From Pseudomonadota bacterium (GTDB taxonomy: Bacteria; Desulfobacterota; Binatia; UBA12015), in assembly GCA_005777805.1 (NCBI GenBank), contig SXLG01000154.1, positions 1 to 38,572 on the forward strand: 38,572 bases of DNA, given 5' to 3'. Below the pieces are notes generated by a model. That model saw nothing but the letters and a program-made list of their open reading frames with translations. It searched no databases and had not been told where the DNA came from. Position numbers and translations under genes: made by a program. Positions 16,214 through 17,194 of this stretch are shown piece after piece. Numbering within the stretch: the stretch's first letter is position 1; each line of letters opens with the position of its first letter.

Positions 16214-17194
16214 TCAGTCCAGAAGGCTCTTGACACCTTGCAGGAAGGCACGGCGAGCGGAGCCGTAGCTGCCCCCGTGGTCGTCGTCCGCGTCGTCATC
16301 GCTGTCGTCATCGCCGTCGTCGTCCCCGTGGTCGTCACCCGAGTCGTCGTCGCCGTCGTCGTCCCCGTGGTCGTCACCCGAGTCGTCGTCACTGTCGTCG
16401 TCCCCGTGGTCGTCACCCGAGTCGTCGTCGCCGTCATCGTCCCCGTGGTCGTCACCCGAGTCGTCGTCGCCGTCGTCGTCCCCGTGGTCGTCACCCGAGT
16501 CGTCGTCACTGTCGTCGTCTGCATCGGGCAGATCGACCGGCGAGCCGCACGATTCGCGGCAGACGTGCAGCACCTCGCGGCAGCCCTCACCCGCCGCGTG
16601 CCAGAGGTCGGCGCAATCCCCCAGACAATGGCCGGCTTCGCCGGCGATCGCCGCAAGGCAGCGCCCCGGCCGATCGGTCTCGAGGCACTCGAGGCCGGCC
16701 GCGCGCTGTCCGTCGAGACAAGCCCCGACACACTCGCGACCAAGAGCCACGACTTCCTCGACACAGCTCTTGATCTCGTCGCGGCAGCCCGCAACGCAGG
16801 TGCCGGGATCGGCAGGAGCGTCGCCCGGCAAAGCCTCCTCGCCGGGAGCGGGCGGGTCGCCCGGCAGAGGTTCGGCACCGGACAGGGCCGCGGGATCGAC
16901 CGGGGCACCGCACACCTGCCGGCATTCCTCGCGGGCCGCGTCGCACGCATCTTTCGCCGTCTCGAAGGTATCCGAGCAAACACGCCGGCACTCACGCCGT
17001 GAATCGCTCTCGCGGCAGACCTGCTTGCAGCCCGTATAGGCAGCGCGCACCGCCATCTCGCAGCCGCGACGGGCCTCACCGCAGGTATCGCCGCAGCCTT
17101 CGTCCGCGGCGAAGCCCAAGCTGACGCCCGCTCCGAGGAGCGCCCACCCAACAACGAGAGCTGCCAGCCCTCTCCGCAACGATTTCTCGACCAT
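16214..17194 (-). CDS. Secreted Cys-rich protein with mirror-symmetric cysteine modules and Asp/His repeat tail
   Basis: A 326-aa predicted secreted protein of unknown family. ATG 17194 is preceded by GGAGG and yields a signal peptide (LRRGLAALVVGWALLGAGVSLGFA). Module 1 (about residues 30-95) has ten Cys with spacings 3-6-10-3-8-3-10-6-3. A Pro/Ala/Glu linker leads to module 2, with twelve Cys spaced 3-6-10-3-10-8-10-3-10-6-3. Both series read the same forwards and backwards, as expected for two antiparallel amphipathic helices clamped by disulfide rungs around an 8-residue turn. The remaining third is five 13-aa DDDSGDDHGDD(D/S)x repeats, a very acidic His-containing tail likely to bind cations, ending in a basic/hydrophobic GSARRAFLQGVKSLLD. 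I do not recognise a homologous family of known function. All function statements are inference. Confidence 0.85.
   Translation of the reverse strand: MVEKSLRRGLAALVVGWALLGAGVSLGFAADEGCGDTCGEARRGCEMAVRAAYTGCKQVCRESDSRRECRRVCSDTFETAKDACDAAREECRQVCGAPVDPAALSGAEPLPGDPPAPGEEALPGDAPADPGTCVAGCRDEIKSCVEEVVALGRECVGACLDGQRAAGLECLETDRPGRCLAAIAGEAGHCLGDCADLWHAAGEGCREVLHVCRESCGSPVDLPDADDDSDDDSGDDHGDDDGDDDSGDDHGDDDGDDDSGDDHGDDDSDDDSGDDHGDDDGDDDSGDDHGDDDGDDDSDDDADDDHGGSYGSARRAFLQGVKSLLD
16307..16501. repeat. 39-bp tandem repeat x5 (codes the Asp/His tail)
   Basis: Five head-to-tail 39-bp units start at 16307, 16346, 16385, 16424 and 16463. They are almost identical, sharing TCCCCGTGGTCGTCACCCGA and differing mainly at one or two codons (GCC/ACT, GTC/ATC). 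In the minus-strand gene each codes 13 residues of the DDDSGDDHGDDDG type. Such near-identity at synonymous sites suggests recent expansion by slippage or unequal recombination, so copy number may vary between strains. Confidence 0.93.

Follow-up and report, generated by a model that had tools for sequence, protein, structure and literature searches.

A protein of 326 residues encoded in the window (the whole 38,572-nucleotide stretch of contig SXLG01000154.1, from a bacterium of the class Binatia, that we analyzed) is probably exported by a Sec-type route and, in our reading, contains two α-helical hairpins that are zipped by disulfides into ladders of five and six rungs, connected by flexible linkers. 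We place the probability of this reading at roughly 0.8; that the protein acts as a spacer in the envelope or outside the cell is a much more tentative part of it. The gene is on the minus strand, its frame running from an ATG at 17194 to a stop at 16214, as bounded by the initial annotation, and a Shine-Dalgarno sequence, GGAGGT, lies 5 nt upstream of the ATG (GGAGGT-CGGAG-ATG). The features of the gene are collected in Table 1. Opposite the gene, a Val-rich open frame of 254 residues on the plus strand (16238-17002) is apparently a shadow of the Asp repeat and not a gene.

Table 1. Features of the gene for the exported protein in the window, with the evidence for each.
Feature	Position	Strand	Basis
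Whole gene, exported protein with two mirror-symmetric cysteine modules (326 aa)	16214..17194	-	Open reading frame, cysteine count and homologues
Signal-peptide-like N-terminus, residues 1-29	17108..17194	-	Hydrophobic sequence; similar N-termini in homologues
Module 1, 10 Cys, 3-6-10-3-8-3-10-6-3, residues 34-95	16910..17095	-	Cysteine count; AlphaFold2 helices
Pro/Gly/Ala-rich inter-module linker, residues 96-132	16799..16909	-	Homologue alignment; low pLDDT
Module 2, 12 Cys, 3-6-10-3-10-8-10-3-10-6-3, residues 133-216	16547..16798	-	Cysteine count; AlphaFold2 helices
Asp/His-rich linker with 39-bp tandem repeat	16265..16546	-	Homologue alignment; found in this protein only
Conserved C-terminal motif region GSARRAFLQGVKSLLD	16217..16264	-	Homologue alignment; genome pattern search

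Two exactly mirror-symmetric cysteine modules had been described in the initial annotation, and direct counting of the 22 cysteines (10 in module 1 and 12 in module 2) gave both of the palindromic spacing series listed in Table 1, with a spacing of 37 between them. Among the reorderings of the same spacings only 12 of 3780 are palindromic for module 1 and 30 of 34650 for module 2, so that random reordering would make both modules palindromic with joint odds of 2.7e-6. All 22 cysteines are invariant in each of 14 aligned two-module homologues, which have 26-38% identity to the window protein. The genome itself was found to carry four genes of the family, among them a paralog with 28% identity that keeps every intra-module spacing (9 + 11 spacings), a protein with a near-mirror first module, 3-6-10-4-10-8-9-3-10-6-3 (L061), and a protein with one long-ladder module and one 10-Cys module (L112, contig 41). 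The earlier description of module 2 as module 1 lengthened by one rung on each arm fits these data and extends to the wider family, as relatives across the class have from 8 to 20 cysteines per module.

Spacing is conserved among homologues and, where it changes, it mostly does so on both arms, which leaves the mirror-symmetric description standing. Cysteine numbers are equal on the two arms in all 20 distinct architectures that we compiled, where random re-pairing of arms expects 5.3, and ten of the 20 are exact mirrors against an expectation of 1.1 (P ≤ 5e-6 by random re-pairing, a value that is generous, as segmentation was done manually, aided by a palindrome finder, and the sequences were sampled by homology). 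Eight of the 20 deviate from the mirror at one step. The innermost pair of cysteines is absent in L010 and L014 (3-6-10-[20 or 17]-10-6-3), and the third cysteine is absent on both arms in L012, L022, L045, and L046 (3-17-3-8-3-17-3). In a second branch the exact palindromes have arms of 6 (L059), 7 (L013/L054), 9 (L057), and 10 cysteines (L024 and L077), and a step from 6 to 2 is found on neither arm in L077, on one arm in L071, L112, L253, and L263, and on both arms in L113. The proteins of a sister branch (L112, L077, L024, L057, L059, L071, and L113) have a long ladder module of 12-20 cysteines, for example 3-6-14-6-3-6-3-6-3-8-3-6-3-6-3-6-14-6-3, followed by a 10-Cys module. Others have an 8-Cys module followed by three to five 12-Cys modules, with 44-68 cysteines in total (L012, L022, L045, and L046). 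That modules occur in tandem, with six in L012, five in L022, and three in L014, identifies the hairpin as the unit of the family. Module 2 of L009 and L018 has, on a single arm, a Gly/Asp-rich insertion of 18-21 residues immediately ahead of the turn, its outer rungs remaining mirrored, and four distant relatives (L021, L023, L068, and L079) gave no clean segmentation. As duplication of an arm would give a direct repeat, which for these arms is mostly non-palindromic, the palindrome rule points to contact between antiparallel arms as the probable cause.

AlphaFold2, run on the two modules of the window protein with an alignment of 14 sequences, predicted both of the antiparallel helical hairpins that had been suggested from the spacing, with model helices 3-32 and 37-67 (residues 32-61 and 66-96) in module 1, model helices 101-141 and 147-187 in module 2 (pLDDT >90 over most), and low confidence in the linker between the modules. 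In each module the turn is flanked by the two central cysteines and so coincides with the mirror center; the structural proposal accordingly survived this check. The 20-Cys module of L077 was likewise predicted as a single hairpin (helix 3-66, turn 67-71, helix 72-139; mean pLDDT 91.6) with helices of 64 to 68 residues and a turn at the mirror center, between C66 and C75. At 97.5-98.75 degrees per residue the cysteines line up along a single stripe of the helix, with R = 0.95-0.97 (null mean 0.43-0.63), and spacings of 3, 6, 10, and 14 all map to such a stripe. In a rigid antiparallel two-helix model, the axis distance of which was at its lower bound of 8 Å in most fits, mirrored pairs jointly reached a Cβ distance of 3.9 Å in 6/6 rungs of the 12-Cys and 10/10 rungs of the 20-Cys module; the direct-repeat order used as a control gave 0/6 and 0/10, and random arms that were mirrored gave 0/6 in 12 trials. 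For the 10-Cys module the direct order also satisfied 5/5 rungs, so that geometry does not discriminate there, and in the 18-Cys form one of the nine rungs lay outside the distance window. In 12-Cys modules, mostly hydrophobic residues occupy positions +1, +4, and +8 of two of the 10-residue spacers, the first and the third, and the cysteine-free layers therefore look like ordinary core. That the spacings share one stripe is also what one would expect if the cysteines followed an 11-residue coiled-coil repeat for packing only, with the palindrome as a by-product of lattice spacing. We consider this very improbable, since a lattice leaves the filling of sites on each arm free, while the equal filling in 20 architectures is far beyond that given by re-pairing, and the direct-repeat order fails geometrically for the longer modules.

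We infer from the mirrored spacing that disulfides connect Cys i to Cys n+1-i, the predicted rung contacts resting on the model geometry and on precedent. In the mechanism we propose, each module would be a long antiparallel α-helical hairpin whose cysteines occupy one hendecad stripe (~3.67 residues per turn) per helix, such that Cys i would face Cys n+1-i. Oxidation in the envelope would zip these pairs into ladders of five rungs in module 1 and six in module 2, with hydrophobic layers between, and would produce from each module a short rod that we expect to be very stable. One flexible linker would join the two rods, and another, Asp/His-rich in this protein, would present the C-terminal motif. 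The oxidation would probably be carried out by a protein encoded in the same genome (L104, contig 88, near 20913), in which a VKOR domain is fused to a DsbA/thioredoxin domain (Pfam VKOR 9e-18, Thioredoxin_4 2e-19, and DSBA 9e-13). VKOR-DsbA-type fusions make disulfides in the cell envelope, and by its domain content L104 is likely an envelope disulfide oxidase.

There is precedent for nested disulfides over a helical hairpin. The α-hairpinins have a helix-turn-helix fold with nested disulfides and the motif C-X3-C-Xn-C-X3-C (PMC7191063, PMC11591084); the pairs in VhTI are C7-C29 and C11-C25 (PMC7191063), and the 6-Cys form, Nigellin-1.1, has the motif C-X3-C-X3-C-X8-C-X3-C-X3-C (PMC11591084). 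Like these peptides (VhTI, BWI-2c, EcAMP1, and Nigellin-1.1), the family described here has mirrored spacing and, in the AlphaFold2 predictions, the helix-turn-helix; it shares an 8-residue center with the 6-Cys form, and its spacing and modeled geometry agree with the nested C1-C4 and C2-C3 pairing. However, α-hairpinins are short plant peptides with two or three rungs, whereas the family is bacterial, its hairpins mostly having five to ten rungs, with tandem modules and hendecad spacing, and in place of the 4-Cys or 6-Cys core motif it has 8-20 cysteines per module with spacings of 3-6-10-3(-10) or 3-6-14-6-3 and onward. Homology to the plant precursors or vicilins was not detected, the best indication being a single match among 14 members, to Vicilin_N, below the cut-off (E = 0.13). 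Twin CX9C and twin CX3C proteins (CHCH, p8MTCP1, and the small Tims) also have an antiparallel α-hairpin with nested disulfides and symmetric spacing, as in p8MTCP1 with C-9-C-10-C-9-C and disulfides C7-C38 and C17-C28 (PMC4596865), but they are eukaryotic, with two nested rungs and other spacing. The CHCH and Tim10 Pfam profiles gave no match at E ≤ 1 in 14 members and none at 0.1 in six long-ladder members. The absence of a profile match, the many more rungs, and the different spacing place the family outside both groups; it would work like α-hairpinins and p8MTCP1 but be a member of neither.

More general searches gave no significant profile or fold match to the family in Pfam, NCBIfam, or the PDB. 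The best PDB sequence match was to 5cwc, a designed helical repeat (E = 0.0012, and 0.028 for the best stretch), and was judged compositional. Foldseek searches returned generic coiled coils only, with no match at E ≤ 0.001. For the 20-Cys model these included colicin E3 (probability up to 0.97, E = 0.19), and the overall long antiparallel hairpin shape that this model has in common with colicin receptor-binding domains and chemoreceptors is a generic coiled-coil similarity; we know of no disulfide ladder in either. In the open-licence papers that we searched, we found no description of hendecad or palindromic disulfide ladders, or of ladders in bacteria that mostly have five to ten rungs.

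It is feasible that the cysteines are instead reduced and that the two hairpins form a four-helix bundle storing Cu(I) or another soft metal. Csp proteins (DUF326, PF03860), some of which are exported, have CXXXC motifs along helices that point into the bundle (PMC5171941), and the window protein has 22 cysteines in four predicted helices. We nevertheless regard such a thiolate store as unlikely. The Csp cysteines are reduced thiols in a four-helix bundle, whereas the pattern here is mirrored hairpin by hairpin, with equal cysteine numbers per arm in every architecture, and a single four-helix bundle would not accommodate the module numbers of L014 (three), L022 (five), and L012 (six), or partners as unequal in length as the 20-Cys and 10-Cys modules of L077. 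Linkers between modules range from 3 to 59 residues in relatives, the DUF326/Csp profile had no match in 14 members or in this genome (a Bacillus subtilis control was positive), and the genome has a disulfide-forming VKOR-DsbA fusion. Moreover, the homologues lack a conserved twin arginine, while the signals of Csp1 and Csp2 are of the Tat type (PMC5171941).

A metal-binding role had also been raised on account of the Asp/His-rich tail. The tail itself exists, encoded by 5.5 tandem copies of a 39-bp unit (16304-16519), but it is not a conserved part of the protein: at this position there is poly-Gly or a short linker in the paralog and other relatives, making the repeat a local expansion of the linker. 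We rejected metal binding by the tail for this reason, and the suggestion of a metal-binding factor found no support. Beyond the modules, conservation is found in approximately the 16 C-terminal residues, YGSAxxAFLxxxxxLhD (peptide GGSYGSARRAFLQGVKSLLD), with G311, S312, A316, and F317 invariant in aligned homologues; in another taxonomic family the stretch is shortened to SGAFLD-like ends. The pattern occurs at six places in this genome and is at a protein C-terminus in two of them, both family members. A general sorting signal was rejected as an explanation, since the motif ends only these two proteins, and we suggest that it is a docking or anchoring peptide.

As to function, a rigid and durable structural spacer or scaffold in the periplasm or outside the cell is the role we think most likely, although only tentatively. 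A somewhat doubtful alternative retains the ladder as a real frame and has it carry a secreted inhibitor or antimicrobial used in attack, defense, or inhibition. The α-hairpinins, which share the principle of the frame, inhibit trypsin or fungi (PMC7191063, PMC11591084), and both the export signal and the rapid divergence outside the cysteines (the 26-38% identity noted above) would suit such an activity. Against it, the modules are larger (62-84 residues, up to 140) and are arranged in tandem arrays, the conserved C-terminal motif suggests docking, and no immunity, toxin, or secretion genes were recognized among the six nearest genes scanned. The neighbors encode a KUP potassium transporter, an AMP-binding enzyme of the acyl-CoA ligase type, metallo-beta-lactamase-fold hydrolases, a phosphotriesterase-family protein, and an enoyl-CoA hydratase. 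Nothing is common to the neighborhoods of the homologues beyond one genus, in which a peroxiredoxin-like gene follows the family gene, and the neighborhoods revealed no functional partner.

Members were found mainly in one class. Of 148 genomes sampled there, 36 have members by profile search and 22 match the exact 10-Cys codon pattern, which was searched for without alignment; the class matches that we inspected were open, non-repetitive modules, except for L257, which has internal stops. In a draw of 395 genomes from the phylum, the hits outside the class were one divergent sequence by profile (L079) and, for the 10-Cys pattern, two genomes, both in low-complexity sequence. A narrow scan of contigs that reached other phyla gave two relatives, one of them titled a Deltaproteobacteria MAG, and a search of plasmids gave no match. 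Spread by phage or plasmid was considered and rejected: the exact 10-Cys DNA pattern occurs in at least 120 viral stretches, and all 148 of the matches listed are low-complexity TGC/TGT runs. The genomes with family members also encode other cysteine-rich proteins (L015 and L041 on the minus strand; the C-termini of L050, L069, and L074), among them one with the spacing 3-10-6-10-3 and a small C-terminal cysteine module (7-3-6-x-1) after linkers.

We think it reasonably probable that these proteins form a family of disulfide-ladder rods of tunable length, which has radiated in one class to supply rigid parts of the envelope or the extracellular space, and in which palindromic spacing is obligatory and rungs are gained and lost in pairs, up to ten disulfides per hairpin. 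Neither Pfam nor NCBIfam has a model for the family described here. Should the ladder prove real, both the pairing (i with n+1-i) and the length of the rod could be read from cysteine spacing, and the proteins would offer a direct test of the oxidative folding of five to ten nested disulfides, here probably by VKOR-DsbA. They would also be a natural case of a helical core in which Cys-Cys layers and hydrophobic layers are exchanged for one another, and would provide a scaffold for rods of great stability.
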